Source: Gordius sp. MW1
Lineage: Eukaryota > Nematomorpha > Gordioida > Gordea > Gordiidae
Direction of reading: 5' to 3'
Assembly: GCA_964036665.1 (NCBI GenBank)
Contig: OZ038526.1
Span: forward strand, 930,001 to 994,000
DNA length: 64,000 nt
Below the pieces are notes generated by a model, which was not told the DNA's origin, did no database searches, and saw only the letters and a list, made by a program, of their open reading frames with translations. Made by a program: the position numbers and the translations under genes. Shown here piece after piece: positions 14,514 to 63,100 of the stretch (positions are counted from its first letter, which is position 1; each line of letters begins with the position of its first letter).

Positions 14514-14517
14514 GATT

Positions 14518-14805
14518 TGTGGCGTTTTAGACATTGGCGAGATGAAGTAACGACCTGACATTCACTTACTTTTGACTTTTGATAATTCAATTCAATCATC
14601 CATCCCACAACAATTCTTCCGGACCAAAAAAACAACACATCGCTATCGCTATTCATATATTATTTTTTTATACCAAATTTCGCTCATATCTTATTTCATT
14701 GTTAATTGATACTTATCCTTATTGTGTGTGTGGAAATAAATACCTTACAATCCTAACATTTATCCTTATTGTGTGTGTAAAAATAAATACCTTACAATCA
14801 TAAGA
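14518..14805 (+). repeat. 5' LTR
   Basis: Begins TGTGGCGTTTTAGACATTGG and is followed after two bases by the primer-binding site. It is very similar to the 3' copy, with a handful of substitutions and small indels, so insertion was fairly recent relative to the other remnants. Confidence 0.9.
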
Positions 14806-14819
14806 TTGGTGACCCCGAC

Positions 14820-15668: not shown

Positions 15669-15691
15669 CGGGCCGTCCCATATGGGCGACA

Positions 15692-16490: not shown

Positions 16491-16549
16491 TTTTTAGCCA
16501 ATTCTTATCGACATATTTAAAACTTTAAATATATCTGGAAGGGTAGTAT

Positions 16550-16834
16550 TGTGGCGTTTTAGACATTGGCGAGATGAAGTAACGAACTGACATTTTACTT
16601 TTGACTTTTGATAATTCAATTTAATCATCCATCCCACAACAACTCTTCCGGACCAAAAAAACAACACATCTATCGCAATTCATATATTATTTTTTCATAC
16701 CAAATTTCGCTCATATCTTATTTCATTGTTGATTGATACTTATCCGTATTGTGTGTGTGGAAATAAATACCTTACAATCCTAACATTTATCCTTATTGTG
16801 TGTGTAAAAATAAATACCTTACAATCATAACAGA
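16550..16834 (+). repeat. 3' LTR
   Basis: Direct copy of the 5' LTR, preceded by the purine-rich tract GGAAGGGTAG and followed by the target duplication GATT. Confidence 0.9.
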
Positions 16835-24984: not shown

Positions 24985-25852
24985 GATTATTTTATCACCC
25001 CAAAATATCTAATTTATTTATATAGTTTTCAATATAGTACGCTCAAAGTTGTGACCTCACCACGTTAAATTTTGCATTAGGCATTATAAGGGATCTTGAA
25101 TCTTTCGCAGGGGAGGTGGCCTTATCTTTCGCAGGGGAGGTGGCCTTACAATTGTTAAAATATTTTTAATTTTTTCGCACCATTTCATCCCTACTTTTTT
25201 ATCCTACTTTTCGCAAATTATCAACATCGACGATCATAATAGTTATCATTGAGTACCTAATTTTTGACATTATAAATAATTATATTCACGTACAGTACAA
25301 ACCTAACATCTATGGGTGGCTAGTAGAGAACTGCAGTCACTTTTTTTCAACCCGAACCCGAAAGTATTTTTAACCCGGACCCGGCCGAAAGACATTTCAA
25401 AAATTTTAACCCGGACCCGGCCGAAAGACATTTCAAAAATTTTAACCCGAACGGGTCGCGAGTAGCTAGGTTGTCTAAGTTTATTATTGTTAATTCTAAT
25501 TATAGGCATTCATATATTGCATAGTAATTAATAACTTAATGCCACCATAAAACAATTATAATAATAAATTAATGAAAAAACAAAATTTTAACAATCACAT
25601 TTATATGGTTTTAGCAGATATTATAAATGTAAGTGTTGAATTTTAAGCCAAAGTACAGCCCTATTTTCACTCTTTTTAAACAATCGAAAACAAATTGATT
25701 TTATTCGATACAATTGAAACGCTTGTGTCCACTTTTTATTAAATAAATGTGCCATCTTGTGTAAAACATAAAAAAATTACGCTGAAACAAACAATGAATA
25801 AGCTAGCTTTTAAAAAAAAGCTTTAAAATAAATATTGATTACCACAATGGCG
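24985..25852. other. Intergenic DNA with two short tandem repeats
   Basis: A perfect 24-bp unit containing TCTTTCGCAGGGGAGGTGG stands twice at 25101-25148. A 36-bp unit containing ACCCGGACCCGGCCGAAAG stands twice at 25372-25443 and resembles the GC-rich subterminal repeats of the hAT at 43656. No gene was found. Confidence 0.6.
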
Positions 25853-34500: not shown

Positions 34501-34756
34501 TTTTTTCATTGTAATGCACGTGAATAAACGATATCGGAAAAAGAGAATAATGGTTACTTGGCTTTTTGTCGAAATTCAATTCAAAAATAAAAAAGTATAT
34601 ATCGGTATTTATTTATAAATGTCATTTTGAGTCAGTTACTCAGCTATAAAATAAAAACTTTCAATCTATAAATATGTTATTTTTTAATAAAAAAAATTAT
34701 TAATTTTTGGCCAAGGGGGTAAACTATCCGTTTCTACCCCCTTGTCTACGCCCCTG
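31587..34756 (-). mobile_element. Near full-length hAT element (ZMYM1/TTF type), inactive
   Basis: The 11-bp ends CAGGGGCGTAG and CTACGCCCCTG are inverted repeats, followed on both sides by an AAGGGGGTA block. The flanking octamers GTACGGTG (31579-31586) and ATACGGTG (34757-34764) match at seven of eight positions. The 3.2-kb length and the minus-strand coding remnants fit an autonomous hAT that has decayed. Its ends resemble those of the small CATGGGCGTAGCC family. Confidence 0.9.
31690..33853 (-). pseudogene. hAT transposase with TTF zinc finger, frameshifted
   Basis: Read from 33853 leftwards, the parts come in family order: a TTF-type finger (WSWLAYSPKKNGAYCKTCVL); the DUF4371-like core with FLTVCDESTDIAGVQQMSLC, carrying the first catalytic Asp; RGQGYDGARNMCGKLNGVQ and YVHCASHSLNLALSD; a helical region at 32464-31912; and the hAT dimerisation domain LPITTCTNERSFSTLRRLKTY at 31908-31690. 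At least five frame changes or stops interrupt it, so it is dead. A DNA transposase of this kind would cut and paste the element and any non-autonomous relatives with the same ends. Confidence 0.88.
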
Positions 34757-35441: not shown

Positions 35442-36503
35442 TGCGGTTTTTTATAAACATTTTATGATAGATGGTGTATCAGTTCATATATATATATATG
35501 TACAATCCCATGAATTTCTTTATGACATTAAATTATTTTAAATTTTATAGATGGATTTAGATTACACAGTAAGTTTTAAGTAGAGCTGTTAAGTAACAGG
35601 TTACTGGAACTATTTTCTTTTTTAAAAGAAATAGCTTCAATTGAAGTTTAACTGTAAACGCGCACGAGATTATTATATAACTCTTGCTTAAAGTTTTTTA
35701 CTAATTCAATTAAATTAAAATTATTTTCGAACTACAATAACTTATAAAGATCGATTATTAGAAGCCTAGAAAACTAATTTCTTTGGTGTAAAATTATGTT
35801 TTCTTGTAAAAACAATAATTATTTTGTGGAAAATTGATTAAATCTCTGATAAAATATATTTTTTCAACTTAAAAGTAGTCACGTTTATATTAAATTCATA
35901 AAACTAAATTTTAGATAGCGCTTTAGACCTCAAAAAGTGGTTGTCATAGAAGAAATAATTAAAATAATTAATTTTAAATGATCAAATAAACCTTGGGCAA
36001 TGCTGTCAGACTGAACATATCCCTTAGTGTTGTAAAAACGGCTGGCTGGTTTTTCCCAGCGTATTGCTAAGCTTAGTTGTTGACGTTTATTTTCACCCAG
36101 TCTTATCAGTGTTAGGTGAATTTCCTTGGGAGAGCTTTGGCGTTTGGCGTTTTTGTAAAAAAGACCTAAAGCGTTCTGGGTGAATGTTTCGGGGTGACCT
36201 TTGGCGTTTAGGTTAGGGTGTATTAAACACCTAAAGGGTGTGGGTGGATAATATTTTTAACCTTTTGGTTTGGTTTTGGCCGTTTGGGGTGGGGCATGCA
36301 AATATATCAATTTTAAGTAATAAAGTTTTAATTTAAGAAAATAAAAATAGTTATATCATGACGTCACTAGTTAAAACTTTTCCCATTGTGACGTCATAAT
36401 GAAAAGTATTATAATTTATAATCTAATCTCTAGTAAATTACAGTTAATTATTATGCTTTGCTTATGCTGCATTATAGAAGTAATGTTTTATTTATGAAAA
36501 AAA

Positions 36504-36930
36504 GATGGCTAAAATCTGTTTAATGATTTCAAAAATTATTTTTTAGACATGCCAAAAATTTTATAAAAATCTATAAAAGGTGGGAAATTTCGCTTTATAG
36601 AATAATCTATAAAGATGGCTAAAATCTGTTTAATGATTTCAAAATTTATTTTTTAGACATGCCAAAAATTTTATAAAAATTTATAAAAGGTGGGAAATTT
36701 CGCTTTGTAGAATCTTCTATATAGATGGCTAAAATCTGTTTAATGATTTCAAAATTTATTTTTTAGACATGCCAAAAATTTTATAAAAATTTATAAAAGG
36801 TGGGAAGAATCTTCTATATAGATGGCTAAAATCTGTTTAATGATTTCAAAATTTATTTTTTATACATGCCAAAAATTTTATGAAAATTTATTTAAATATA
36901 TATTTTTGAATTTTCTGCCTCAGCCAGGTG
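36504..36930 (+). repeat. Left inner arm: four tandem 110-bp repeats
   Basis: Units start GATGGCTAAAATCTG at 36504, 36614, 36724 and 36821 (the third is shortened to 97 bp) and include GACATGCCAAAAATTTT and GTGGGAAATTTCGC. Confidence 0.93.
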
Positions 36931-37569
36931 GTAACAATTTTTTTGAACATTTTAATATGGTTTAACTTTATAATTTACACATTTGCTAAGCAGATTAATT
37001 GCGATTAATCACAAAATTTAATTTCAAATATATTTTGAATTCCTCGGCTCTTGTAAAAGATAAAGACTTATTAGTTATATAATGTCCCTTTTATTTTATA
37101 TTTGTAGTAGTGTTGTAAAAACGGCTGGCTGGTTTTTCCCAGCGTATTGCTAAGCTTAGTTGTAAAGTTGTAAACAAGCTAATTAATATTCCTTAATCTC
37201 AGCATTTTACCCCTCTTTATGACAGAGCTTATGCGTCCGAGCACATATGGTAGCTATATATTTTTTATGATCCTTATAAGCATTGTAAACGCGAGGTCTA
37301 AGTCAACTCAACAGAATAGCATGATATGCTTTTTGGAAATGCCTTATTTATTTTCTTAACACTTGAGAGGTTGGGTCAAAAATGCTAACAAGGATGGTAT
37401 TTGGGGTAATAATTAGAATTACCCCAAACTTTAAATAGCTATAACTTAGATATTTTATAATATAAATTTGTCAAAATTTGCAAGGATAATATTTCAACTC
37501 TTATACGTTCATTAATATATTAATTTGCCTATTTGATCAAGTGGTTTAAATTTTATGCCTATAATTAGA

Positions 37570-38558
37570 GCAAACCTGAGGCAGAAAATTCCAAAATATA
37601 TATTTAAATAAATTTTCATAAAATTTTTGGCATGTCTAAAAAATAAATTTTGAAATCATTAAACAGATTTTAGCCATCTATATAGAAGATACTACAAAGC
37701 GAAATTTCCCACCTTTTATAAATTTTTATAAAATTTTTGGCATGTCTAAAAAATAAATTTTGAAATCATTAAACAGATTTTAGCCATCTTTATAGAATAT
37801 TCTATAAAGCGAAATTTCCCACCTTTTATAAATTTTTATAAAATTTTTGGCATGTCTAAAAAATAAATTTTGAAATCATTAAACAAATTTTAGCCATCTT
37901 TATAGAATATTCTATAAAGCGAAATTTCCCACCTTATATAGATTTTTATAAAATTTTTGGCATGTCTAAAAAATAAATTTTGAATTCATTAAACAGATTT
38001 TAGCCATCTATATAGAAGATTCTACAAAGCGAAATTTCCCACCTTTTATAAATTTTTATAAAATTTTTGGCATGTCTAAAAATAAATTTTGAAATCATTA
38101 AACAGATTTTAGCCATCTTTATAGAATATTCTATAAAGCGAAATTTCCCACCTTTTATAAATTTTTATAAAATTTTTGGCATGTCTAAAAAATAAATTTT
38201 GAAATCATTAAACAAATTTTAGCCATCTTTATAGAATATTATATAAAGCGAAATTTCCCACCTTTTATAGATTTTTATAAAATTTTTGGCATGTCTAAAA
38301 AATAAATTTTGAATTCATTAAACAGATTTTAGCCATCTATATAGAAGATTCTACAAAGCGAAATTTCCCACCTTTTATAAAATTTTATAAAATTTTTTGG
38401 CATGTCTAAAAAATAATTTTTGAAATTATTAAACAGATTTTAGCCATCTATATAGAAGATTCTACAAAGCGAAATTTCCCACCTTTTATAAATTGTTATA
38501 AGATTTTTGGCATGTCTAAAAAATAATTTTTGAAATCATTAAACGGATTTTAGCCATC
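37570..38558 (-). repeat. Right inner arm: nine inverted 110-bp repeats
   Basis: The same unit in opposite orientation; the block AGCCATC recurs at 37672, 37782, 37892, 38002, 38111, 38221, 38331, 38442 and 38552. Adjacent units differ by few bases and alternate between TATAGAAGATTCTA and TATAGAATATTCTA variants, pointing to amplification of larger multi-unit blocks. Confidence 0.93.
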
Positions 38559-39231
38559 TTTTTTTCATAAATAAAACATTACTTCTATAATGCAGCATAA
38601 GCAAAGCATAATAATTAACTATAAATTACTAGAGATTAGATTATAAATTATAATACTTTTCATTATGACGTCACAATGGGAAAAGTTTAAACTCAGTGAC
38701 GTCATGATATAACTATTTTTATTTTCTTAAATTAAAAGTTTATTACCTAAAATTGATATATTTGCATGCCCCACCCCAAACGACCAAAACCAAACCAAAA
38801 GGTTAATAATATTATCCACCCACACCCTTTAGGTGTTTAATACACCCAAACCTCAACGCCAAAGGTCACCCCGAAACATTCACCCAAAACCCTTTAGGTC
38901 TTCGTTACAAAAACACCAAACGCCAAAGCCCTCCCAAGGAAATTCACCTAACACTGATAAGACTGGGTGAAAATAAACGTCACCGCTTGCAGGCGACCAA
39001 TAGAAACCCTTGGTTTTTTATAACACTAATATCCATCATAGTTTTTGCAGGCCCACACAAATCCCCCCTCTGATTTCATGACATAGACTACCATGTCATC
39101 TATCAAGCGATGTTCATATAGCAAACCTTGCATCAAAAACTTTTTCTTGTAATCGCTTTTATTTAAGTGAATAATTCAATTAAAATAAACATAATAAAAT
39201 TTTGACACAAGAGTTATGAGATAAAAGTACG

Positions 39232-41293: not shown

Positions 41294-42066
41294 CAAAAAT
41301 AAATTTAAGGGCTAAATGAACCATAAAAATATTCTGTCAAAATTAATTGAATAAAATTTTTATTTAGTAATTTTAGATGAAATTAGAGATGTGATGCACA
41401 GAACAACATAGCGTTTGTGTTTATTTTGTTGAATCCAATGACACACCAAAAGGATTTTTTTAGGATTTATATCCCTTAAAAGTTTTGATGCGTTAACAAT
41501 TGTCTATAAAATTCAATTTGTTATTATTATTAATTCATCAAACTTATGATGGGATATCACTAATAAAGGGGAAAAAATGGTGTACAAACTATTTTTTGGA
41601 AAATCATTAGCATTATGGTAGGCAAAAACTTACTTTGAATAATGCAACTCGAACATCGATTACTTAACTTACCATTCGAGCATTCACAAAACTCACTATT
41701 AATATATCTTAACCTTATTATTTGACCACTCATTATAATGTAAATAACCTTGATAGATGTGTGTATAAACAAGACGTTTTAAGTAAAATTGATTTTGAAT
41801 CACTTTCCTTTTGGGTTATAAATATAACTAAAGTAGAGAACATATTTCTCTACAGCATTATATGTGCATGTGGTACATTAAAAAAATACAAGATATGTTA
41901 AACAATAAGCATGTGAGATGGACAATTAAATTGAAACCAGGATGGAGTTTACGTAAATCATTTAAATAGGTGTAACTTAAAAGTTACATTGGTACCTGTT
42001 GGGTTAATAATATTGATAATATAACTTTTTGACCATGTCGATCGGATTGATCCGTGCACACCTCTA
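41294..42066. repeat. Unit E1: 3' part of a TAGAGGTGTGCACG element in a tandem array
   Basis: Homologous to 45422-45947 and ending GATCCGTGCACACCTCTA. The left end is missing: homology starts abruptly at 41294, beside the LINE fragment. It carries about 240 bp (41618-41858) absent from the second copy, bordered by the octamer AGCATTAT on both sides. Confidence 0.8.
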
Positions 42067-43141
42067 GTATAGACACACATTAACTCTATAATAACTCCTT
42101 AAGCAAAACGATGAAATTTAGATATTAGCTATATTTAATTCTGAAAGTAAAATTAGCAAAATGAGGGCTTAATTAAGACATAAAGCAAAATACTTATTCA
42201 TTCATGGGCGTAGCCAGGCCCCCCAAATGGCAAAAAAAATTGAATGCAAAAACCCTTAAAAATCAAAAAAAAATATGTTTTGCCCGCCCCCCTAATTGAA
42301 CTTTTAAACGTTTCGTCCCCCCCCCCATTCATAACCTGGCTACGCTCATGTATTCATTGGCTTAGATTCAATGTTTTAGATGAACATATTATATTAATTA
42401 AATTCTAATTAAGTTAATCGTTAATTATTAAATATAACTTTACAATTTTCAATATTCGAATCAAATTAAAAACTTACATTATGCGAATTTAAAAGCCTTA
42501 TTAAAAATTGCTTTGCATTTTTTTATATCGGCGATTTACTGATTGGTTAGTTTGCAATGGTACAACTTGTGCAATTTCAAATAACACACAATTACTTTTA
42601 AAACTTAAATAAAATATACTATAGATGGCGCAAATATTACGTTTAACCATAGCATGTTACATCCTCAAAAGGTGAATGTGGTATACGCTTTTAACTCTTT
42701 ACAAGAAGTTCCAAATATTTTACTTATCATGAGGTTTTTCTTTGCTAAAGGCTTTTGTTATGTGATGTTAGCCTAATATAAACACAATAATATATTTAGT
42801 AAATAGAAAAGCGTTTATTATGATAAAGATCAAATGTAAAATTAAACTGATTATTAAAAAGTTAAAGAGTGAATAATTTTGCATTAATAAGAGTCACCAT
42901 TTATACTGTAATTTTTGCATAATACAACTTTTCTAAACTTCAAAAAAGGTATTATTAATTGCTATGCAATTTATGGGCTCACTTTCCATTTGTTTATGTC
43001 ACGCACCGAATGTCTTGTCACGCTTTTCGTCGTGTTTACCATTGAGACCGCTTGGAATTCGAATAAGCCATTCTCAGTAAAACATAGCAATTAATACCTG
43101 TGCTCCACCCTACAAAGGTCTATGCCTCTACTGATGTGGGT
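42067..43141. repeat. Unit F1: 1.07-kb flank repeated with the element
   Basis: A near-identical copy lies at 45948-47018. It contains a MITE at 42203-42350, whose target duplication is also present in both copies, showing that the MITE was there before the duplication. No coding content. Confidence 0.85.
42203..42350. mobile_element. Small hAT-like MITE, CATGGGCGTAGCC family, reference copy
   Basis: Starts CATGGGCGTAGCCAGG and ends CCTGGCTACGCTCATG, flanked by a perfect 8-bp duplication TATTCATT (42195-42202 and 42351-42358). The core is two C-rich and G/A-rich runs around an AAAATATG block. The 8-bp duplication places the family with hAT elements. Confidence 0.9.
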
Positions 43142-43655
43142 TAGAGGTGTGCACGGATCAATCCGATCCGTCCGAACTCGGATCGGATCGGATCAACATT
43201 TTATTTTAGTCGGATCGGATTTTCAAATTTAAAATAAACAATAATAAGTTCTAAGGGCACAAAGTGGAACGGGGATATTGACAAGAAATCTATGACATTT
43301 TAAAAAATAATACAAATAGTAAAAAAACTATACAACAAAGTTTTTATAGAAATATTTTATTGCCACAACCGCAAAAAATCTTGGCCATATATATAAAATA
43401 TAACAAATTTTTAATTTTACATATGCAATATTGATAGCGTTTTCAGGCAGCTATTATATCATAAAAACAATGAGACCTTTTTAAAACCCGTTTTAAGGTT
43501 AGATCCCCAAAAGGCGTAATTATAACATAAAATATAAAAAAAATAATTAAAATTCGTACGAGATCAATTGCTAATGTGAAGGATTTTATAAAATTAGATA
43601 ATGTGAAGGATTTTATAAAATTAGATACAAAATGTTTTAGGTATACTGATGATAT

Positions 43656-45335: not shown

Positions 45336-45947
45336 GATGATATTATAGATATATTTGCACAACCCCCCCCACCCCCCCCCCCCCCCTTCCCTTTTACACC
45401 ACCTAAAAATTAAAATGAACTAATAAATTTAAGGGCTAAATAAACCTTAAAAATATTCTGTCAAGATTAATTGAATCAAATTTTTATTTAATAATTTTAG
45501 ACGAAATTAGAGATGTGAGATGCACAGAACAACTTAGCCTTTGTGTATATTTTGTTCAATCCAATGACACACCAAAAGAATTTTATTAGGATTTTTATCC
45601 CTTAAAAGTTTTGATGCGTTAACAATTGTCTACAAAATTCAGGAATTTGTTATTATTATTAATTTATCAAACTTATAATGGGATATCACTAATAAAGGGG
45701 AAAAAATGGTGTACAAACTATTTTTTGGAAAATCATTAGCATTATATGTGCATGTGGTACATCAAAATGCAAGATAGGTTAAACAATAAGCATGTGAGAT
45801 GGACAATTAAATTGAATTCAGGATGGAATTTACGTAAATCATTTAAATAGGTGTAACTTAAAAGTTACATTGGTACCTGTAGGGTTATAATATTGATAAT
45901 GTAACTTTTTGACCATGTCGGATCGGATTGATCCGTGCACACCTCTA

Positions 45948-47018
45948 GTATAGACACACATTAACTCTATAATAACTCCTTAAGCAAAACGATGAAATTA
46001 AGATATTAGCTATATTTAATTCTGAAAGTAAAATTAGCAAAATGAGGGCTTAATTAAGACATAAAGCAAAATACTTATTCATTCATGGGCGTAGACAGGC
46101 CCTTCAAATGGCAAAAAAAATTTAATGTAAAAACCCTTAAAAATCAAAAAAAAATATGGTTTGCCCCCCCCTAATTGAAATTTTAAACGTTTCGCCCCCC
46201 CCCCCCCAATTCATAACCTGTCTACGCTCATGTATTCATTGGCTTAGATTCAATGTTTTTGATGAACATATTATAAATTAAATTCTAATTAAGTTCGTTA
46301 ATTATAAAATATAACTTTACAATTTTCAATATTCGAATCAAATTAAAAACTTACATTATGCAAATTTAAAAGCCTTATTAAAAATTGCTTTGCATTTTTT
46401 TATATTGGCGATTTACTGATTGGTTAGTTTGCAATGGTACAACTTGTGCAATTTCAAATAACATACAATTACTTTTAAAACTTAAATAAAATATACTATA
46501 GATGGCGCAAATATTACGTTTAATCAGCATGTTACATCCTCAAAAGGTGAATGTTGTATACGCTTTTAACTCTTTACAATAAAGTTCCAAATATTTTGCT
46601 TATCATGAGGTTTTTCTTTGCTAAAGGCTTTTGTTATGTGATGTTAGCCTAATATAAACACAATAATATATTTAGTAAATAGAAAAGCGTTTATTATGAT
46701 AATAAATAATAAGCAGAGTATTACAAAGCTTCAAAATCCAATTTATAGTTTATTCAAATATATCATTGTAATTAATACACCAATCACCATTTATACTGTA
46801 ATTTTTGTATAATACAACTTTTCTAAACTTCAATAAAGGTATTATTAATTGCTATGCAATTTATGGGCTCACTTTCCATTTGTTTATGTCACGCACCGAA
46901 TGTCTTGTCACGCTTTTCGTCGTGTTTACCATTGAAACCGCTTGGAATTCGAATAAGCCATCCTCAGTACAATACCTGTGCTCCACCCTACAAAGGCCTA
47001 TGCCTCTACTGTGTGGGT
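45948..47018. repeat. Unit F2: second copy of the 1.07-kb flank
   Basis: Homologous to 42067-43141 over its full length with small indels. A 109-codon frame at 46805-47134 crosses into E3 and is disrupted in F1, so it is not taken as a gene. Confidence 0.85.
46084..46232. mobile_element. Small hAT-like MITE, CATGGGCGTAGCC family, duplicated copy
   Basis: Same insertion as 42203-42350, with the same TATTCATT flanks, carried along in the tandem duplication. Confidence 0.88.
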
Positions 47019-47696
47019 TAGAGGTGTGCACGGATCAATCCGATCCGTCCGAACTCGGACGGATCAACATATTAATTTTGGAAGTCGGATTGGATCAACA
47101 TTTCTATTTTAGTCGGATCGATTTTCAAATTTAAAATAAACAATAATAAGTTCTAATTAATTAAATTAATAATTTTTAGTGTACCTTTTCATAATTATCT
47201 TTGAAATGAAGATTGCAAATATGATTCAAAAAAAGATTTGCTGAAATGGTGGGTGTCATATCAAACAGTCTTGCCAAGGCTTTATAAGCTGGCAAATAAA
47301 GTTTTAGCTATATACCTGCTACCTCTAACACTTCGGAAAGAAATTTCTCGGTGGCTGGAAGAACATTAGAAGAAAGAAGAACGCGAATGAACCAGAAAAT
47401 TTAGATTCTTTATTATTTTTATATGATAATATGGAATTAGTTAAATAAAATTTTATATTTATTTTAGGTCTATTAAAATTGCCATACCTTATTTTTACAT
47501 ATTTTGAATTTAATCATCAATAAAAAGTTCTGTTCGTAAAATTTTAATTTCAAAATTTCGGATCGGATTTAGATTTTAAAAAACTTGGATAGGATCGGAT
47601 TTAGATTTTCAAAATATCGGATCGGATCGGATGGATATAAAATTTTTTAAAAACCCCTCGGACGAATCATAAAAATTTGATCCGTGCACACCTCTA
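47019..47696. mobile_element. Unit E3: shorter hAT-like element with TAGAGGTGTGCACG ends
   Basis: Starts TAGAGGTGTGCACGGATCAA and ends GATCCGTGCACACCTCTA with GGATCGGAT motifs near both ends. At 678 bp it is a different deletion form from E2. No reading frame of interest. Confidence 0.82.
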
Positions 47697-47705
47697 ATCT
47701 TCCAT

Positions 47706-47875
47706 CATGGGTGTAGCCAAGGGGGTGGGATAAGGAGGGGCGGCTGCCCCCCTCTAAATCCAAAACTTTGTTGAAATTTACTAAAATTGTGGCTAGAATT
47801 TGAGAAAATTTCATATTTTTCCCCTCCCTATATCATTATTGCCCCCGTCTAATTCCAATCCTGGCTACGCCCATG
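47706..47875. mobile_element. Small hAT-like MITE, CATGGGCGTAGCC family
   Basis: Starts CATGGGTGTAGCCAAGG and ends CCTGGCTACGCCCATG. The same insertion with the same flanks is at 60886-61032 in the ORP gene, so it belongs to the duplicated ORP segment. Confidence 0.85.
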
Positions 47876-48485
47876 TCTCTCTCTATGAGTGTTTACATCA
47901 ATGCTTAAATCTTTATTTTCTTATGCAAAATCATTGAATAAACTAAAAAATCATAACCTCTACTCACTTGTGATTAAGAATGAAACCGTCCACTCTGTTA
48001 AGTTCTTTGCCAAACATACCGGTGGGCCGAAATTTCGCCACATGTGCATTTTGCCAGTTGTGCAGGAGCTTAATAGATGAATGAATGTTACTTTGGAAGT
48101 TGTAAAGGTATGACACCCACAGGTAGAAAATTTGATGATTGTGCGTGAAAAGCGTTAATGGGTGGATGATGACTAGTTTGTCTAAAAACTATTCTAATCC
48201 CCGATCTGGCCTAAAAATACATAATTTAAATTTATTCAAATAAATTGATTAAACTTACAAATTATTCAATGTAAAATTAATTTTTTTATAAGTATTGAGC
48301 GATAAACAACACTCTAAAGTCTTTATTTTCACGATTTTTACATAAAAATAAAAAGGTCTTTCATCGATTTGTGTGAGTATAATAAAGTAGTACATGTCTA
48401 GTTCATATGTTTCCCCCAACAAAGGATTAAAAGGCTTTCCCAATCGATCCCAATTAGTGGCACAACCGGAAACTGCAAACGCGGC
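47876..48485 (-). pseudogene. Duplicated ORP fragment (parts of exons 3, 4 and 6)
   Basis: Homologous to 61033-62522 of the ORP gene but lacking about 660 bp that hold exon 5 there. Read leftwards, [20 protein letters not shown] and ETYELDM (exon 3) are intact up to the breakpoint at about 48485, where the sequence switches to the myotubularin gene. The exon 4 copy lost about 65 bp after its SHHPP region, and the exon 6 copy keeps only [12 protein letters not shown] with its donor site. It cannot encode a lipid-binding domain. Confidence 0.88.
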
Positions 48486-48634
48486 TAAAGCACGCATACG
48501 CCTCACAATTCGGTAAAAACACTGCTTTTATAACCACACTTATAAGATTAATTTTGGCTATCCCTTTATTTCATTGAGTTAAGATAAATGAAGTTCTTAA
48601 GTTGCATTTAAATTTTAGTTTTTGATCATACGGT

Positions 48635-48842
48635 AGGTTAATAAAAACAGCTGGGTATTGTTTGGTCGATCTTCTGGCTTTACTAAGACTTAAGGTAGCT
48701 TCTGGTCTGTTTTTCATATTTCAATCCAGCTTAGAGGTCGACTCAAGATAAGCAGATTGAAAATCTTTGGTCTGTTTATCTTGAGTCGACTAAAACCTAA
48801 GGTCGACTAAACAAAACCCAGCCATTTATAATACAACATTAC
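48635..48842. mobile_element. Palindromic MITE, TAGTGTTGTAAAA family, in the duplicate
   Basis: Arms with AAAAACAGCTGGGTATTG and ACAAAACCCAGCC are inverted, with GTCGACT blocks inside. It corresponds to the truncated element at 23104 in intron 12 of the parent gene and is better preserved here. Confidence 0.65.
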
Positions 48843-48899
48843 CATAAGGCAGTCTAAACAAGGCACTCACTTACAATTACAACAATGTAGTCCCCTAAA

Positions 48900-49042
48900 C
48901 ATGGGCGTAGTCAGGGTGTGGCGAATCCAAAATCTTCAAAATTTAATATAACTATGGCTAAAATTACTAAAGCCTCATTTTGCTTGCCCCTCCCTAAAAC
49001 ATCATTGCCCCCCCCTCTAAATTTAACCTGGCTATGCCCATT
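48900..49042. mobile_element. Small hAT-like MITE, CATGGGCGTAGCC family
   Basis: Starts CATGGGCGTAGTCAGGG and ends AACCTGGCTATGCCCAT. The 8-bp flanks CCCCTAAA match perfectly. The parent intron 12 keeps only the right half, with TCCCCTAAAATATAC after it. Confidence 0.85.
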
Positions 49043-49406
49043 CCCCTAAAATATACTAGGTGACAATTCACCTTTTCTTATTAAAGGGGATAGGTTTTAA
49101 CTAATTTAAACAAAAATCTGAGATCGTCAGTACAACACCCATGAATGAAAAGTGGAATAATTTATCATTGTTCATGTGATATTTGAGATTTTGGGGGCTA
49201 ATTAGCCTTTTTCCAATTAATTCCAATTTATTATTACCATAAAATGAAGCTTGATAGCATTATCTTTTGCCTTCTTTAGGAACGTTCCTCTACAGCAATT
49301 GGCACGAAAGGGAGGTACACGAGGTCCAAAACTGTTTGTCTATGGTAAGCAAGCGCTCCCACATTCATTTCCTTTAAGCTCCCAAAGCTCTTTTCAAAGG
49401 TCATAT

Positions 49407-49568
49407 TAGTGCTCTAAAAACGGCTGGGGGGTTGGTCGACCTTTGGTTTTAATCGACTAAACTTAAACAGCATACTAAAGGTTTGATTAATAAATTTTTA
49501 GTTTGATTATGCGACTAAGAACCTAAGGTCAATCAAACAAAACCCCTCAGCCGTTTTTACAACATTGG
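49407..49568. mobile_element. Palindromic MITE, TAGTGTTGTAAAA family
   Basis: The left end TAGTGCTCTAAAAACGGCTG is mirrored by CAGCCGTTTTTACAACATTG. The octamers GGTCATAT and GTTGATAT agree at six of eight positions. The parent copy of this intron (after 23640) lacks it, so it was inserted after the duplication. Confidence 0.75.
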
Positions 49569-51215
49569 TTGATATTCACCTTTTCCCCTCATTCACAATA
49601 AATATTAAGACGCGAGTGGAAAATGAATTAATTTGTTACCTAAATCACTATTTCCTTTGATTTTTTTAGTTTGCCCATTACACATTACATATAAGCTTTA
49701 AATCGATTGCAATATGGATCCGATCCTAATCCAAACACACGTATCTCTTGAGTTTAGGGTGAGACTTGTTCACAATTTTAGTTAGTTTAGTATACTAAAA
49801 ATACTAATTCTTCAAGAGGCTCCCTAATAACTTGTATTCATAGACTAGATAGACTGCTTATCAACGCACAAAATGTGAACCCTTTTTTCCGCCATCTTGA
49901 CTTGCACTTTGTATAGTGGCGAACATATAGAAATTCGTAATTTTCGCAAATTAAATAATTAAAAGGGTAAATAAAAAATATTGAATTGGGTAGATATCAA
50001 AAACAGCCTTTTAAAATAAATATCATTTAAAAAATACATAAAAATTAAAAATGTAAAAAATGCTATTAAAGTTTGTTTAATAATATAGCGCCATCAATTT
50101 TAATTGCTATTTTGTATAATATTAATTTATTTACGTTCGTTTTAATTTATAAACTAGTGAGGAAGGTAAATTCACTGTTATAGGGCAAAATTACATGGTT
50201 AAAATACACCAATTGTGCAAGTAGTAATGGCGGATTTTTGGTCACACAATTTACCATATGGAACATATGGTGTGAGCAGTCTATGTAGTCTATGCTTGTA
50301 TTTTAAAAAAGCAAATTAAAATTTAAGTTACATGCTTAAAAGATGTTTCAAATTTTTTGATACATATCACTATTAAACAAAACTTTATTGTGATTTCCAT
50401 AATATTCGGTAAATTTTTTGTAACATTTTGTCAATCCTCCTTCCCTACGCCACTAATTTTTAGTTAGGTCATTAATAACAAAAAAACTTTAAGTACCTAA
50501 TACTTATAAGTGGCAGAGTTTTTCCAAGTCGCGCTTTTAATACTTGACCTTGAATTACCTTTTTCTAATGACTTTACCCATATCGGATAATTCATACCTA
50601 AAATCTTATAATTTATTTTATAACTTATACATTACGATTTAGGTACTACCTTAATTTGCCCTAAATGAAAGAATGTTTTACCAACAAATTTTACGATGAA
50701 TCCTCCCTTTGCGATCCACACAAGGCATATCTGGCATTGGATACAAATTCCCAAAATTTGGTATAAATCATTATTAAGTAATTTCTATTAAAACTTTTTC
50801 AAATTCAGCACAAGGATTTTAATCAGTTGAGCACATTTCTCTGGCCCTATATAATGATTTCATACTATTTATTATTTTATCAATAATTATCTTCAAGCTT
50901 AGCACTTATCCAAATGTGGCTTAATAATATTTACATTACTTTTTGTGGGGTTTACATAACTTAAAGGAGCTTTATCAATCTCTATCATACATCCCTAAAA
51001 TAGGTGCTATAATTTTTAATTTTCAATAAAAAAGCTTTAATTTTGCTTTTAAAAAAGGGATTATTTGCTTAATTGATCGTTCATAAAAAAGTATTTTTCA
51101 ATTTGGGTGCGGAATTGATATGAACTTTCGCCAGAATTTTCCATGTAGAGCATTGATAATCCATCAATCAGCTGATCCCACGAAGGATTTAAATTGTCTT
51201 AACATGCAAAATGAG

Positions 51216-51462
51216 CGTATCGGTGCATTCGACCAAAGTTTAACTGACCAAATATCTATGAATGTCTACGAATGTCTATGAATATTTAACGAAAATGCTC
51301 CTTGAGAGGGGTTTACAGAGACGAAAACGTTAGGGTTAGTGTTTTAGGTCGGGGTTTTAGGTTAGGGTTTGGATTATGATTAGATGCACACATTTTAATC
51401 GACAAATGCATTTTCGTAGACATTTATTTGTTATGTGCACTTTGGTCAATTGCAACTGAATC
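51216..51462. mobile_element. 247-bp MULE-like MITE in the exon 15 duplicate
   Basis: A perfect 9-bp duplication CAAAATGAG lies at 51207-51215 and 51463-51471. The parent exon 15 has a single CAAAATGAG at the same place. The imperfect terminal repeats centre on TTGACCAAAGTGCA. Nine-bp duplications are typical of Mutator-like elements. The core contains TTTTAGG and GTTAGGGTTTGGATTATG, shared with 16902-17136. Confidence 0.88.
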
Positions 51463-51526
51463 CAAAATGAGGCATTGCGCTGGAATCCCTTTAACAACAG
51501 GTGATTGGAGAAGAGCACAGCGTGGT

Positions 51527-52120
51527 AGCCAAAATAAAGCTGCTCCAAAAATGTTTCTAAAATTATTTCACGCCAAAATATCTTATTTATTTATATCGTT
51601 TTTAATATAGTACGCTTAATGTTTTGTTCCAAATCTTGCTTAATTTAAATAAAAATTGTTTAAATGTGTATTAATATTATATAAGAGCGGGTATATTAGA
51701 CTAAATATACCATAGATTGGTAAACAACTGATTATAACAATCTAAAAAGTAACCCTAGCCTCCATTTCAGGTGTACTGCTTTATCTTATATATAAAAATG
51801 AAACTATGTATGTTTGTATGTTTAGCCAAAATAAAGCTGCTCCAAAAATGTTTCTAAAATTATTTCACGCCAAAATATCTTATTTATTTATATCGTTTTT
51901 AATATAGTACGCTTAATGTTTTGTTCCAAATCTTGCTTAATTTAAATAAAAATTGTTTAAATGTGTATTAATATTATATAAGAGCGGGTATATTAGACTA
52001 AATATACCATAGATTGGTAAACAACTGATTATAACAATCTAAAAAGTAACCCTAGCCTCCATTTCAGGTGTACTGCTTTATCTTATATATAAAAATGAAA
52101 CTATGTATGTTTGTATGTTT
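51527..52120 (+). repeat. Two tandem 297-bp copies, apparently identical
   Basis: 51527-51823 and 51824-52120 match base for base as far as I could follow. Each holds the end of the exon 15 duplicate (AAGCTGCTCC), its downstream sequence, and the first 40 bases of the Helitron that starts at 52081. Confidence 0.9.
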
Positions 52121-52924
52121 GTGTGTATGTTTGTGCGTATGTATGTGGATAAGGACTAAATTCTTAAACTACCGGCCCGATTCGCGCGAAAATTTAGCCA
52201 TAGATGCCCAGGGCGGCCAGGGGTAAAATAGCTTTTTCAGAATCCTAAAATTCCTTTTGGTTTTAAAAATATCGGACGTTTCGTTTTAAAAAAGGGCTAA
52301 ACTCTGAAACTACCGGCCCGATTCGCGCAAAAATTTAGCCGTAGATGCCCAAGGCGGCCAAGGTTAAAATAGCTTTTTCAGATTCCTAAAATACCTTTTC
52401 GTTTTAAAAATATCGGACATTTCCCGGCCAGTTTCATTTATAGCATCCTATACAATAATGACTTCATACATACAAGGTTGATGTTTTCTCGAATTAGATA
52501 TTTAAAAGTTTAATAAAAATGTTACAGTATACAGTCAAAATTATTTTAAATTAAATAAATAAAATTTATATTATGCAATTTTTGCCATTATTATCACGTG
52601 GTCGATCTTTCAGATTCCTAAAATACCTTTTCGTTTTAAAAATATCGGACATTTCGTTTTAAAAAAGGGCTAAACTCTGAAACTACCAGCCCGATTCGCG
52701 CGAGAATTTAGCCGTAGATGCCCAGGGCGGCCAGGGGTAAAATAGCTTTTTCAGATTCCTAAAATAACTTTTCGTTTTAAAAATATCGGACATTTCCCGG
52801 CCAGTTTCATTTATAGCATCATATACAATAATGCGCCATACATACAAGGCTGAAGTTTTCTCGAATTTTATTATATTAAAGAAAATTGTATTATTAGCAA
52901 AACAACGTTTGCCGGGTCAGCTAG
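52081..52924 (+). mobile_element. Non-autonomous Helitron
   Basis: Begins TCTTATATATAAAAATGAAA after an A and ends GCCGGGTCAGCTAG before a T, as expected for insertion between A and T without a target duplication. A short hairpin GCAAA/TTTGC sits just before the CTAG end. A unit of roughly 125 bp with CCGGCCCGATTCGCGC and GATGCCCAGGGCGGCCAG is repeated about three times, and a block with CCCGGCCAGTTTCATTTAT occurs twice. No Rep/helicase is encoded. The ends are my basis for the call. Confidence 0.85.
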
Positions 52925-53224
52925 TAATGTATAGAAATAAAATTTTTTCTCTAATTAGCGCCATCTATAGGCAATTTTAATTAGAAACTAATTTGAACCA
53001 TATATATCTCTATCTTTTTTAGCATGTGACTCGAAAATGATAACAAACATATAACGTTTTTGCTCTAATATAATTTAGGTATTTGTTTTGATGTATAAAT
53101 TATAATCATATATATTATAAATTTGTTATTTTTTGCTGATTAAAGTAAATGCTCGCCCCCAATTGAACCATGATTATTATATGACAACTTTGACTAAATT
53201 TATTTGTAATGTAGGGAGATTATA

Positions 53225-53288: not shown

Positions 53289-56200
53289 TCATTGTGGTAA
53301 CGCAGATGTCAGATCAAATATTTTGGGACAGGTTGAGTAGTCTCGTTTCCAATATTCTTCTCTAAAACACCAATCATCTTCCCCTTTCACATATGGATTT
53401 TTAATCAATTGGAACCACATGGGATCGTTCCTGGTGGATTTAATGCTTTTAGCAAATTTAGCCATTGCTCTCTGTTTTTCTTCCAAAGCCGTCTTGAGTT
53501 TACTTGCAATTTCTATTCTTCCCATCTCGTACTCCCTCAAGTCGGGTCTGTATCTAGAATCCGTTGGGGGCAAAATGGCGTCGGGCGGAGGGGGTTCGTT
53601 CAGTATCATACTGAACAGAGAAAAATTGTAAATCTGTCGTGTGAATAAAGTTAAATGCATATGGAAAATTGCTTTAATTGCTAAAAACAATTGCAGTGAC
53701 TTATTTATTATTGTTAGGCTAATATGTTTTCTAGCAACTACCATCAAGCATGACCTATGCTACTGCATGTCCATGAGCAGTGTTTGATGAAAATGCTTGA
53801 GGGTGGACTATGGGTTAGAGCAGCTAGGCTTAAAACATACTAAGTAGCACCCATTATTAATATAGAGTGCAAATTGCAGTGATTATAAAAGAGTTAAATT
53901 ATATTTATAACTTTTATTAAATGTTATAACTTAAATCCGCTCTCCAACGTCCTCGTCGTGCAGGGGGGACAACAGATTCTAATATCTGGCTAAAGGAGAA
54001 ACAGTCCGTGTTACTTAGAAAGACTGCTGAAAATGTTAAAGTTCCACGGCCCCAGACCTTTCCATACTTGGATTCGTTTATATGAAAAGGTTTCAAAAGG
54101 ATGGTCCGTTAAAACTCATCCTCTGAAGGAAAACGACTCAAACCCCTGTGATCTGGGGTCAGAATAGGATCTCCGCTCCTCGCGAGTCGTACAAAGACGA
54201 AGAGGTTGGCGCCAGGAAGGGCATCCGGCTGTAAAGACTGCTCCAACCCCCTATGAATACAAAGGCAAATGGGCGGGGTACAGCCCTAATCCCGTGGGTT
54301 AACTCATCGACCTACGTCAAAAAAAAAGATGAGGATCCAGGCAAAATCGTTTTGGGACTCCTCATGATGGTCATCGACTTGAAAATATTCGAGGAGGCCG
54401 GCCTAAAGGCGACACGCTAAGGGTTGCAACCTGGAACATAGGGAGCATGACGGGAAGTGCGGGCGAGGGAAGCACATATTCGGAGAAGGATAGATATATG
54501 CTGCATACAGAAGATAAGGGGGAAAGGAGAGAGTGCTAGGATGATGGGAGCCATTAGTGCGCGGTGTAAATTCTACTGGCAAGGGCACAAGGATGGAAAA
54601 GTTGGTTTAGGGATACTTGTCGCTGAGAAATGGGTGGACAAAGTTATCGATGTCAGGCGATTTAACGACAGGATCATAGATATTAAGATGGCGATGGGAG
54701 AAAGGCTATACAACGTTATTTCGGCCTACGCTCCTCAAGTAGGAAGAAGTGATGAAGAGAAAGACATTTTCTGGGATCGCCTGATGGAAATTAATTCCCA
54801 CCTTCACCCTAGAGAATCTATTATATTAGGCGGGGATCTAAATGGACATGTTGGCGCGAATATCGATGGTTATGAAGGGGTTCATGGTGGTCACAGCTAT
54901 GGAACCAGGAATACGGAGGGAGAACGCATTTTGGATTCTGGGGACGCTACTCAGATGGTTATATGCAATACTTTCTTCAAGAAAGAAGACAGGAAGCTTA
55001 TAACCTATAAATCGGGTACCCTCAAAAGTACTGTCGACTATATGATGGTCAAAAAATCGGACAGATGTATGGTTAAAAACGTCAAGGTTGTCCCTGGGGA
55101 AGAATGCGTGACACAACACCGTCTTATTGTTGGGGATCTCGTAATGAAGGAGCTTATAAATCCAAAGAAACGCTATATCCCGAGCTCAAGGTGTGGTGCT
55201 TGAAAGATGGTACTCAAAAGAGGGATTTTGCCGAAGCACTTGATAAAAACTCAGTTGCGATGGCGAAGAACGTAAACGACAAATGGACGGCTATGAAGAA
55301 TGCTTAGCTTGACACAGCGCGCGTTTGTGGTTGGACAAAGGGGCCCCCAAGACATAAGGAAACTTGGTGGTGGAACTCTGAGGCGGCGAAAGCTATTGAA
55401 GATAAAAGGCGTTGCTATAAAGTTTTGCATGAATCCCAACAAAGGTGCGATAAGGTTATCTATCAAGACGCTAAAAGAATTGCAAGAAGGACCGTCGCCA
55501 GAATAAAGGAAACAAAAAGATGCGAGTTTGCTGGAAGCCTTGACTCAGAGGAAGGGAAGAAAAACATGTTTCGCGTAGCCAAACAAATGGCGAAAGAAAG
55601 ACTTGATGTTGTGGCGGTTAAATGCGCTAAAACTCTTGCGGGTAACATCATCTCCCATGGCGATGGAATCAAAAAGGTTTGGAAAGACTACATGAAACGA
55701 CTCTTAAATGAAAAGAATACCTGGGACAATGACGTCGATTGCGATAAAGTGGAGGGACCCTGCTGTTGGATTGGGACTGACGAAATTCAGCATGCCATAA
55801 AGAAAATGAAACTAGGTAAAGCGGCAGGCCCAACTGGAATAGTGGCGGAAATGGTAAAAGCTTCTGGACATTTGGGAGTCGTTTGGCTTACACAGCTGTG
55901 TAATGCCATAATCCAGGAAGGGGCTATACCTAGCGATTGGAAAAAGAGTGTTCTTTTACCAATATACAAAGGAAAAGATGACTCACTTGACGGCGGATCA
56001 TATCGGGCTATTAAGCTCCTTGACCAAACCATGAAAGTTATCGAGAGGGTGCTCGAGAAAAGAATCCGGGAACAAACGAACATCGACGCAATGCAGTTCG
56101 GATTTAAACCAGGGAAAGGGACCACCGATGCCATCTTTATAGTACGACAGATGCAAGAAAAACATCAAGCAAAAGGTAAAAGACTATACTATGCCTTCGT

Positions 56201-59200: not shown

Positions 59201-62200
59201 TTAAATTAAATTACTATAGTTTCACCCGGCCTCTGATCAGTAAATTTTTTTAAAGAACTCAATAAACGCTCGCCCCCTTCTAAAATATCGAATAGTTTAC
59301 TAAGACAATCAATTGCCATTGCGATTGCTAAATCAAATTTTTTTTCCTTGATGGATTCAATGCCCATTCCTAAAGAAGATGAAGAAACGGATAATGTGTT
59401 TTAATCATTTTTTATATGTTTCACTTTATGTTTAATACTTTTTTTTAATAAAGCATGTCATTCAAAAAAAAATATATTCAGAAATGCGCGCAAATAGCAG
59501 ATTAGAGCATATAACAATAACATAACCACTAAGACTCACCAAAAAATATTTGTTGAATACTTATAAGATTATAAAAAGCCCTGTATCGTCAGCTTTAATA
59601 ATTTGCTGCATTTTAATTTAAATTAATAATCTGGACAGAAGTGTAACTAAAAATACATTACTAGCTGAGCAAACATGGGTGTAGCCAGCATTGGGATTAG
59701 AGGGGTGCAATATTGGGCAATACTGATTTAGGGAGGGGCAAAATGATCATTTTTTAAAATTTTAGCCATAATATTAACAAATTTCAACAAATACTTGGAT
59801 TTAGAGGGGGCAGCCGCCCCTCCCTGCCCCCCCTGGCTACGCCCATGTGAGTAAATACTAACAAGTTACATATGCATTCTGCTTATAAATCAGGAAACTA
59901 AAATGAAGGTAAATTCTTTTGCGCCGATAAACCTGAGGTGAATTGGATGGTTTGGGGGAATGTTTCCACAAAAGCTGAGATTTGGGTAGATTTAGTACGT
60001 AATTTGCGTATTTGAGTTGGTCTGTTGACACGGATAGTCCTTCCATTGAATTCACTAAATTAGTGCCATCCTCATCTTTACCTTGCCCACTATTTAGTTT
60101 TTTAGAGTTTTTTTGATTGGCCAACGTCTAAGAAGGATGTTTAAACAAGTTGCGTTAAAACGATTAATAATGTTTTAATTACTTGTAATGAAAAGGTCCT
60201 TTTGGATAGCTAAACATAATATAGTTGTTATCAGAAACACGCAAGATAGTATACATTAGTTAATAAGTTAGCATTTTGTATGCATACTCACGAAACAACT
60301 TATATAACATCAAGAACAAAGACTGTTGAGATAATAGCATGACTAGAATGCTTATGACAAACATTACGAACGACACTTAACAAAAACGTTTCTCACAGAT
60401 TTAGCGTTCATTGTGAATTTATTATAGCAATTGGACACTGCAGATTGAGATGATTCCTTTATATTGTGAGATAAGATGCTAGGTTCCGTAGCAAAAAGAC
60501 AAGTTGTCCAATTGCCATATAAAGCTCGTCTCTCAACTTTCCTATTTAAATTAACGTATGTATATGTCTTATACACTTACTTAACAACATATTACAACCT
60601 ATGTCTGACACCTTATGATGCATAAAAGCCACTCACGCTCAAACTTGTTTAGTAGATGTTAATGTTTTAATGTTCAGTTCATAGAGAATGTTAAATATCG
60701 CTTACGCTACTACTTCGCCTCCTACTCATTTTATCATCGACATTTTTGCTCAGATATTCGTCATATATTTTAGGCAAGGTAGAATAAAGAGCAAGATTCC
60801 AATGTCCATATAGGGCACGCACTTTAACATCCCTAACATCAATCAACATACACAAAGACAAATTATTATTTCAAAATTATTCCATCATGGGCGTAGCCAA
60901 GTGGGAGCAGGGAGGGGCAGCTGCCCCCTCTAAATCCAGAATGTCTTAAAATTCCAAAAATGGGTTCATTTTGCCCCTTCCTAAATCATCATTGCCCCCC
61001 CCCCCATAATTCCAATCCTGGCTGCGCCCATGTCTCTCTCTTTATGATGAGTACAATGTTCTTAAATCTTTGTTTTCTTATAGAAAATTATTGAATTAGT
61101 AAACAATTATAACTTACACTACTCACTTGTGATCAAAAATGAAACCGTCCACTCTGTTGAGTTCTTTGCCAAACATACCGGCAGGCCGAAAGTTTAACGA
61201 GCATCGATAATTGTTTGTGTGATTGATTATCTCTAAAGGTCCCGACTATAAATAATAATTAAAATAAAGATTTACAATAGATTTTAAAATGTTTATTCAT
61301 TTAAATAACTTAAAAAAATATTAATCCTTTTCACACTTATGAATACAAATGAATATAACATTTGTATTGTATTACGTGTTCAATCCATAATTTTCCGATA
61401 ATTATGTTGTGAATGCTACAATTTGGATTGGACCAAGTGTATACATCGTTGTGGCTAAATAAATAAATAAACATGAATGAATGAATGAACATGAACGCTC
61501 CAGCACAACTGGCGAATTGCACATGTGGCGCAATTTAATAATATTCTTAGGCAAATATTTAACAAATGTGTCAATTAATGCGTCATATAATTTAAAGTTA
61601 AGCAATATATAATATTATTATCGCTAAATCCTTGCTTTTTTAATGTGATATTATTCTTGCACAATTAAGACCAGCAATCATTAGGTCGGTATTTGTTTGC
61701 CATTCTTGAACAATTATTACAGACAATATCCTTCAGCTTCTTATATGATAATATTGATGAATGGCAACCCATTTATATATTATTTATTTTAATTTATTCT
61801 TAAACTTTTAAGTAAGGATTATAAATGATGTTGACTTTTCTCCAGTTGTGCATTTCGCCAGTTGTGCTGGATTCATGAGCATGTATGAATGAATGTTACT
61901 TTGGAAGTTGTAAAGTGATGATTCCCACCGGTTGAACGTCTAAAGCTTTGCCCCAAAATTTACTTTTGGGCTGAATTGAACCGTGAAACATAAAATTTGA
62001 AGATTGGGCATGAAAAGCGCTAATTGGTGGATGATGACTAGTTTGTTCACAAACCATTTTAAATCCCCGATCTGGCCTAAAAACATTATTTTAATTTATT
62101 TAAAAAAATAGAGTAAAGTTACAAATATTTAATATAAAATAGATTTTTTCTACGTTTTGAAGGATAAACAACTCTCTTAAAGTCTTAATTTTCATTTCAC

Positions 62201-63100
62201 GATTTTGTGTGAAAATGTTGTTTAGTGTTCTAATCAAAATAATTTAAAAAAATAGAATAAACAAATATTTAAATATAAAAATTAATTTTTTCTATGTTTT
62301 GAGTGATAAATAACATGCTTACAACTTAATTTTCACGATTTTTTATGAAAATGTAGCGTAGTGTGATTAATCAAGAAATAAAGTGGTTTTCATCGATTTT
62401 ATTATTGGTAGTATAATAAAGAAATACATGTCTAGTTCGTATGTTTCTCCCAACAAAGGATTAAAAGGCTTTCCCAATCGATCCCAATTAGTGGCACACC
62501 CCGAAACTGCAAACGCGGCTACCATCTTTAAAATAAATCAAGGATAAAATTCATAATTCATTTTTCATATAAATTTAGTAAATAAAAACTTTTGTAAAAT
62601 TAAATGTTATTTAACTAAAAATTTGTCTTTCAATAAGACAAGCTTTTATTTTTTTATAAATAATTAAAAAAAAATATATATATAACTTGGCATTTTTAAT
62701 AAAAGAAACTTGGCAAATAATTCCCTAAAATTTAAGAATATAATAGGAAACTTTTAGATTGGTTTTCTCTAAATAATATTAAAAAATATATAAACTTGGC
62801 ATTGTTATAAAAAAACTTGGCAAATAATTACTTCCATTCTTTCAACAGGGTTGTCCAGAGAGTTTGCTTTATCTAACAGGTAAGAATATTCCATATACTC
62901 AGCAAGTCTTTGCAAAAAAGACAGGGGCTCGTTTAGTACTATGGGCATCGTTATTTTAGATAAATCCTATTTATCCCAAAAAACACAAAAAAATTTAATT
63001 CGATTGATAAAAATAAATATTTAATACCTTTCCAATGCATTGTTTCAAAATTCCCCAAATGCTGATTTCAGCACGGGGCATGGGTGCAGGAAGAGATTTT
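53289..63100 (-). CDS. OSBPL: Oxysterol-binding-protein-related protein (ORP1/ORP2-like), lipid-binding domain, 9 exons, 5' end not found
   Basis: Exons (minus): 63100-63028, 62966-62832, 62525-62428, 62076-61900, 61454-61376, 61245-61127, 60541-60397, 60127-59933, 53633-53289. Phases agree throughout and give 454 residues to a TGA. Order of motifs: [67 protein letters not shown], the family signature [12 protein letters not shown] (usually EQVSHHPP), [105 protein letters not shown] and the C-terminal EEYWKRDY. The domain binds sterol or phosphoinositide and moves them between membranes at contact sites. The match is closest to the ORP1/ORP2 group. Any ankyrin or PH regions would lie beyond the window. 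Introns range from 61 nt to 6.3 kb; the last one hosts a LINE, a satellite array and a MITE. Confidence 0.95.
53933..57475 (+). mobile_element. LINE (non-LTR retrotransposon), full-length insertion, RTE-like
   Basis: A 12-bp direct repeat ATGTTATAACTT flanks it (53921-53932 and 57476-57487). The 5' part has GGTTGGCGCCAGGAAGGGCA, common in the 5' region of such elements. One long coding region with endonuclease and reverse transcriptase follows, ending in a short GAAGAAG/A-rich tail. Length and organisation fit RTE-like LINEs. It sits in the last ORP intron, antisense to that gene. Confidence 0.92.
54412..57390 (+). pseudogene. LINE polyprotein: AP endonuclease + reverse transcriptase, with breaks
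   Basis: Begins [15 protein letters not shown], then after a frame change continues to 55203 with the APE-type endonuclease motifs [28 protein letters not shown] and KSTVDYMM, ending near QHRLIVGD. The RT domain (55425-56312) contains [46 protein letters not shown] and [15 protein letters not shown]. After a stop at 56310-56312 come [20 protein letters not shown], a second stop in the segment before [12 protein letters not shown] (the catalytic YADD), and SKTKVLFGG-like residues. A Cys cluster [18 protein letters not shown] lies between the thumb and the C-terminal [12 protein letters not shown] and YGSETWPL motifs. The frame ends DRIKWRK. At least two frameshifts and three stops make it inactive. 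Confidence 0.9.
57680..58811. repeat. Inverted satellite array of GCTAAGTATTTAAAT units
   Basis: 57680-58120 holds about 22 units of roughly 20 bp, each starting GCTAAGTATTT. After a 150-bp AT-rich spacer the same unit runs in the opposite orientation (ACTTAGCATTT) from about 58281 to 58811. Unit length varies between 18 and 22 bp. The right edge AGCAGTTAAATAAC resembles the edge of the small array at 22104-22240. It lies within the last ORP intron. Confidence 0.93.
58812..59673. other. Non-coding part of the last ORP intron
   Basis: AT-rich, with no frame or element end that I could support; a plus-strand stretch near 59240-59400 has slightly richer composition but no recognisable exon. Confidence 0.45.
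59674..59847. mobile_element. Small hAT-like MITE, CATGGGCGTAGCC family, long form
   Basis: Starts CATGGGTGTAGCCAGC and ends CCTGGCTACGCCCATG, with a TTTTAGCCATAATATT core. Flanks TGAGCAAA and TGAGTAAA match at seven of eight positions. It lies 86 bp downstream of ORP exon 8. Confidence 0.9.
60886..61032. mobile_element. Small hAT-like MITE, CATGGGCGTAGCC family
   Basis: Starts CATGGGCGTAGCCAAG and ends CCTGGCTGCGCCCATG, in the intron between ORP exons 6 and 7. The same insertion is at 47706-47875 in the duplicate. Confidence 0.88.

Follow-up and report, generated by a model that had tools for sequence, protein, structure and literature searches.

Two kinds of known structure come close to the locus described here, the duplicated (non-processed) pseudogene and the products of partial tandem duplication. 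Tandem duplications that break inside genes are well known, and their junctions can join parts of genes. The legend to Fig 2 of PMC5460883 presents a tandem duplication in Drosophila yakuba that brings the 5' end of one gene together with the 3' end of a second, and the excerpted text of that study counts 76 chimeric genes from tandem duplication among 15 lines and groups gene fragments with chimeric genes as partial gene changes. Tandem-duplication products in the excerpts of PMC4503668 include chimeric genes and recruited non-coding sequence. We analysed a stretch of 64,000 nucleotides (the window) from Gordius sp. MW1, contig OZ038526.1, positions 930,001 to 994,000 of the forward strand, which lies inside a 37.4-Mb contig of a 211.8-Mb genome assembly (GCA_964036665.1); positions below are counted from its first base. 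At 47.70-51.63 kb the window contains a partial copy of an oxysterol-binding-protein (ORP) gene directly adjoining a partial copy of a myotubularin (MTM) gene, and both parents lie within the same window. The copy is probably a dead relic of one partial tandem duplication over the two convergent genes. The features that carry the argument are given below, with repeats assessed in a sample of 20 stretches of 10 kb, six of them adjoining the window.

22944-25053, plus strand: 3' part of the parental myotubularin gene, which extends further left (self-BLAST, tblastn, Pfam).
47019-47698, no strand: 680-bp TA-flanked terminal-inverted-repeat element, where ORP homology stops on the left (repeated, in pieces, in sampled loci; ends read from the sequence).
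47699-48487, minus strand: ORP pseudogene piece, with a MITE-bearing intron and then relics of three exons (47967-48032, 48091-48209, 48393-48487); parent 60880-62521 (blastn, alignment, exon peptides by tblastn, exon alignments).
47704-47879, no strand: miniature inverted-repeat transposable element (MITE), occupying the same site in the ORP parent (60884-61033) (self-BLAST; repeat depth across the 20 sampled loci reaching 12).
48487-48488, no strand: blunt junction of an ORP exon (parent base 62521) to an MTM exon (parent base 22944) (alignment of the copy to both parents).
48488-51626, plus strand: myotubularin 3'-part pseudogene with a premature stop and indels; parent 22944-25053 (self-BLAST, alignment, tblastn).
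51208-51471, no strand: 256-bp insertion in the last MTM exon of the copy, not in the parent, flanked by a target-site duplication of 8 bp or slightly more, AAAATGAG; the range includes both duplication copies (alignment).
53292-53636, minus strand: last coding exon of the parental ORP gene, to the right of the copy, which completes the Oxysterol_BP domain (positions 269-367 of 368 in the Pfam profile PF01237, E 4.8e-24).
60880-62521, minus strand: copied part of the parental ORP gene (self-BLAST, exon peptides by tblastn, Pfam).

Self-BLAST of the window placed the two halves of the copy directly side by side, each on the same strand as its source. The ORP half matched its parent with E-values of 2e-65, 3e-52, 9e-52 and 5e-17, and the MTM half matched its own with E-values of 2e-156, 1e-81, 1e-56, 3e-45 and 2e-42, while the best reversed-sequence controls reached only 0.001 (ORP) and 0.23 (MTM). 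A cross-control of the MTM piece against ORP gave an E-value of 1e-10 over 61 bp, which we read as a MITE family present in both. When copy bases 48000-49000 were searched as DNA against the whole genome, the matches outside the window, among those listed, fell on query positions of at least 619 (about 48.62-49.0 kb), the repeat-rich part; this search scored only the best candidates, and other copies of the gene parts may exist elsewhere.

These results bear out most of what the first-pass annotation, made from the window sequence, had proposed at 47.7-51.6 kb: a copy of part of an ORP gene and the 3' part of a myotubularin gene, on the parental strands, with introns copied. The introns are present in the alignments of both halves, and the copy carries the MITE of the ORP parent, as had been claimed, at the same site and between flanks that agree to the left (about 7 bp) and to the right, which upholds a DNA-level event; a retrocopy or processed pseudogene was rejected on the presence of introns in both halves. 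The annotated switch at 48485 moves 2 bp to the right, where the junction is abrupt, with zero overlapping bases and zero filler between the parent matches. Reading of the splice sites by eye agreed that both breakpoints fall inside exons, the ORP exon lacking 4 bp and the MTM exon retaining 25 bp. A loss of about 660 bp including an exon had also been noted; the loss is real (parent 61195-61836, with exon 61376-61453), and its size is nearer 640 bp. The interval 60880-62522, annotated as the ORP gene, turned out to be the copied part only, since exons of that gene run from 62.91 to 53.29 kb. Lastly, the description of the copy as a chimeric duplicate fusing two genes does not hold: its ORP half reads left, its MTM half reads right and neither has a 5' end. 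A fusion (chimeric) gene was ruled out on these opposite coding strands and the missing 5' parts, and, as the strands read, a fusion transcript or protein is not implied and no joint reading frame is possible in the sense of a fusion gene.

The layout fits a tandem duplication. Because the ORP gene reaches 53.29 kb, the parents are convergent neighbours, MTM on the plus strand pointing right and ORP on the minus strand pointing left, and the copy occupies the space between, its nearer edge 1.7 kb from the stop codon of ORP, in the layout that tandem duplication leaves. From left to right the window reads MTM exons (plus) to 24.98 kb, the ORP part (minus) and MTM part (plus), and ORP exons (minus) at 53.29-62.91 kb, that is, parent A, part of B joined to part of A, and parent B, all in parental orientation as tandem duplication predicts. 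The halves of the copy stand back to back, with their 5' sides meeting. By our own count there are 24 possible layouts (2 orders, 4 orientations and 3 places relative to the parents), of which the one observed is the single one that follows from tandem duplication.

Under this explanation the facing 3' parts of the convergent genes, from a late MTM exon to the inside of an ORP exon, would have been duplicated as one block. The block ends would have been joined bluntly by end joining, placing a 5'-truncated ORP copy directly before a 5'-truncated MTM copy, with a complete MTM gene surviving on the left and a complete ORP gene on the right while both copied halves decayed together. The last ORP exons and the former intergenic DNA would later have disappeared from the left copy, with transposons filling the gap, perhaps once the DNA between two copies of the element found today at 47019-47698 had been deleted. 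Such a deletion would explain both the missing inner block and the end of ORP homology at that element; on the left this homology stops no more than about 12 bp from the outer end of the MITE common to copy and parent, immediately beside the 680-bp element. We infer that the parents are complete genes, that the junction is a duplication junction made by end joining, and that the later deletion took some such route. The blunt junction suits end joining, though it is old, and a base could have been lost or changed there.

Both halves carry damage. The MTM half, consisting of the last 25 bp of one exon plus three further exons, shows a premature stop, three gaps (5, 3 and 2 bp) and the 256-bp insertion. 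In the ORP half, the exon relic without its first 4 bp has 4 synonymous changes and still matches the parent at all 31 residues compared, the second relic is short of 57 bp and contains a 1-bp gap, and the third shows 86% identity over 22 residues. A 298-bp direct tandem repeat (51526-51823 and 51823-52120, 100% identical) begins inside the last exon of the MTM pseudogene and is, on its face, very recent or homogenised.

The divergence of the copy from its parents was compared between the two halves. The proportion of differing sites was 0.205 (30/146) in the shared MITE, 0.209 (18/86) in the ORP intron beside it and 0.165 (21/127) in the best-aligned block of the next ORP intron, compared with 0.203 (288/1421) in the MTM introns plus 66 sites of 3' untranslated region. 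Exons differed less, at 0.090 (25/278) for ORP and 0.072 (26/362) for MTM. ORP intron comparisons were based on BLAST blocks and piecewise alignments. These values suggest a near-equal age for the two halves, with reservations. The joint event that the first-pass annotation had tied to equal divergence is upheld by the MITE, introns and exons, with two poorly aligned ORP intron blocks, described below, speaking against equality.

Mobile elements bear on the order of events. The MITE, which copy and ORP parent carry at one and the same position, is older than the duplication. Two more repeat insertions, one of them MITE-like and shortened in the parent, were observed at matching places in the MTM parent intron (23104-23320) and the copy (48642-49041), and given these matching places they too probably predate the duplication. 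Separately, blocks 41298-43254 and 45422-47156 are 91-94% alike and both contain the start of the 680-bp element at the same site, so that the block was probably copied after the element inserted.

Several observations weigh against a partial tandem duplication. Only the two ends of the block are now present twice; duplication throughout the interval between the breakpoints was not seen and later loss has to be assumed. The model implies that 25.05-47.70 kb and 51.63-60.88 kb were once similar, yet a sensitive comparison of the two recovered the MTM end already known, and all other matches were weak, AT-rich or repetitive-looking and non-collinear as a set, such as 34564-34685 with 53015-53134 (63%, E 0.005) and 41325-41374 with 52537-52582 (76%, E 0.002). 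No relic of the ORP exons of 60.82-53.29 kb was found in 25.05-47.70 kb, so that a further deletion must be assumed, and none was found in the 30 kb flanking the window on each side. One ORP intron differed at 0.33 in the first alignment and, on realignment, two of its three blocks remained at 0.29 (30/102) and 0.27 (15/55), both poorly aligned; the pooled ORP intron figure of 0.293 (79/270) mostly reflects this intron, which contains an internal repeat in the parent. Codon positions 1 and 2 also differed at only 26 of 427 sites, against about 47 expected for a copy neutral from birth by the intron yardstick, which puts the expectation for these positions at about half the intron distance (binomial P 0.0004). 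Third codon positions were low as well (25/213 against about 40 expected), so that a lower rate in exons suffices for the shortfall; measured against third positions, positions 1 and 2 would be expected to show about 29 differences, and the deficit is then not significant (P 0.29). The counts are compatible with a copy dead at or near birth and leave room for a functional phase before decay. Since the inner duplication is missing, the assignment rests on layout and age, and we give the partial tandem duplication a probability of about 0.65.

The alternative that survives best is a tandem duplication of the whole block (MTM-ORP-MTM-ORP, all complete), after which a single deletion took out the 5' halves of the inner ORP and inner MTM genes, which lay next to each other. 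The junction would then stem from the deletion, and the copies may have been functional for some time. Order, strands and equal divergence would come out alike, and both the shortfall at codon positions 1 and 2 and the ORP exon piece with all 31 parental residues would suit it. It costs one event more than the partial duplication, however, and the slow third positions mean that a lower exon rate is enough to explain the shortfall, so we consider it unlikely. More doubtful is the broader idea that the back-to-back pieces were once under selection, in one form as full second copies that a deletion later cut down, in another as a non-coding locus whose sequence matches that of both parents, to which we would give less than a one-in-ten chance; if true, past selection on the pieces would account for exons changing less than half the intron distance predicts.

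Replication-based template switching, in which the two pieces were copied and inserted together between the genes without any tandem duplication, appears improbable. It would fit the lack of any left relic of the ORP 3' exons or the intergenic stretch, and one side of the copied stretch does stop close to the end of the MTM gene and its other side at a MITE and a second element. Nevertheless, it leaves the order, both orientations and the place between the parents to chance, a transposon confounds the left edge, and the junction shows neither microhomology nor filler. Capture of gene fragments by a transposon (a Pack-type element or Helitron) might be suspected from two intron-bearing gene pieces side by side with a terminal-inverted-repeat element at their left edge, but that element has both of its inverted ends (47019, 47698) to the left of the pieces and both sources are immediate neighbours, so that capture, judged by the termini left of the pieces and not by a systematic search for partner ends right of 51626, appears highly improbable. 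Nothing in the assembled sequence spoke for an assembly artefact or misplaced second haplotype, which is very unlikely given intron divergence of about 20%, a private insertion with a target-site duplication and a contig of 37.4 Mb.

Exon tracing was partial for both parents, with the 5' ends lying beyond it. For the ORP gene, exon peptides at 60.7-62.5 kb (minus strand) matched Pfam Oxysterol_BP with an E-value of 8e-54, and the traced exons include a further one at 62.83-62.91 kb and, downstream of the copied part, exons at 60.70-60.82, 60.43-60.53 and 59.93-60.12 kb and the last coding exon at 53.29-53.64 kb. An ORP9 type was considered for this gene; a PDB search instead placed ORP1 and ORP2 as the nearest solved structures. 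The last ORP intron holds an element at 54.45-56.31 kb with a reverse-transcriptase match (E 2e-13) and an endonuclease-like match (E 5e-4, below the Pfam cut-off). Exons 60430-60534 and 60697-60822 (minus) each encode a stretch with an ALYGxW motif, with 45% protein identity over the matched part, and may be alternative, mutually exclusive exons. An inverted repeat at 61497-61872 (CAGCACAACTGGCGAA...) was also observed in the ORP parent, and the copy retains one arm-like stretch of it where the exon-bearing piece is missing.

Phosphatase-domain matches for the MTM gene were observed at 20.76 kb (E 8e-6), 22.35 kb (E 0.005) and, weakly, 17.84 kb (E 0.03, profile positions 5-57), while the joined exons of 22.36-23.61 kb gave an E-value of 5e-22 and later exons continue to a stop near 24.98 kb. 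The myotubularins listed were MTMR1, 2, 6 and 8; MTMR9 is no more than a guess for this gene. Left of the MTM exons, a direct repeat pair (14517-16830, about 285 bp each, 95.8% identical) surrounds open frames that include a match to DUF7041, which we take to be of retroelement type. Between the MTM parent and the copy, self-BLAST also revealed a satellite-like array at 36501-38561 with a period near 110 bp and inverted copies included.

As in a duplicated (non-processed) pseudogene, the introns of the copy are retained and its reading frames broken, the event is local, and decay has proceeded by a stop, frameshifts and insertions; unlike such a pseudogene, the copy brings together partial pseudogenes of two different genes, which abut at a single base position. 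A small look at the literature did not find this back-to-back double-pseudogene layout named, and it could be mistaken for a fusion gene by an annotator or a reader of the raw sequence. Views on gene origin are unchanged by this case, which is most likely an ordinary kind of DNA accident. As far as the excerpts of PMC5460883 go, the locus resembles the duplications of that study in having both breakpoints inside genes, with parts of two neighbours joined at the duplication junction. It differs from the example in which a 5' end and a 3' end form a chimeric gene, because here the genes are convergent and two 3' parts stand back to back with no gene resulting; and the duplications of that study segregate in populations, whereas the present one appears old and decayed. 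The case looks like the known tandem-duplication process acting over convergent genes, with nothing new in its mechanism, and offers a compact example of how such a partial duplication can produce a dead back-to-back double pseudogene.

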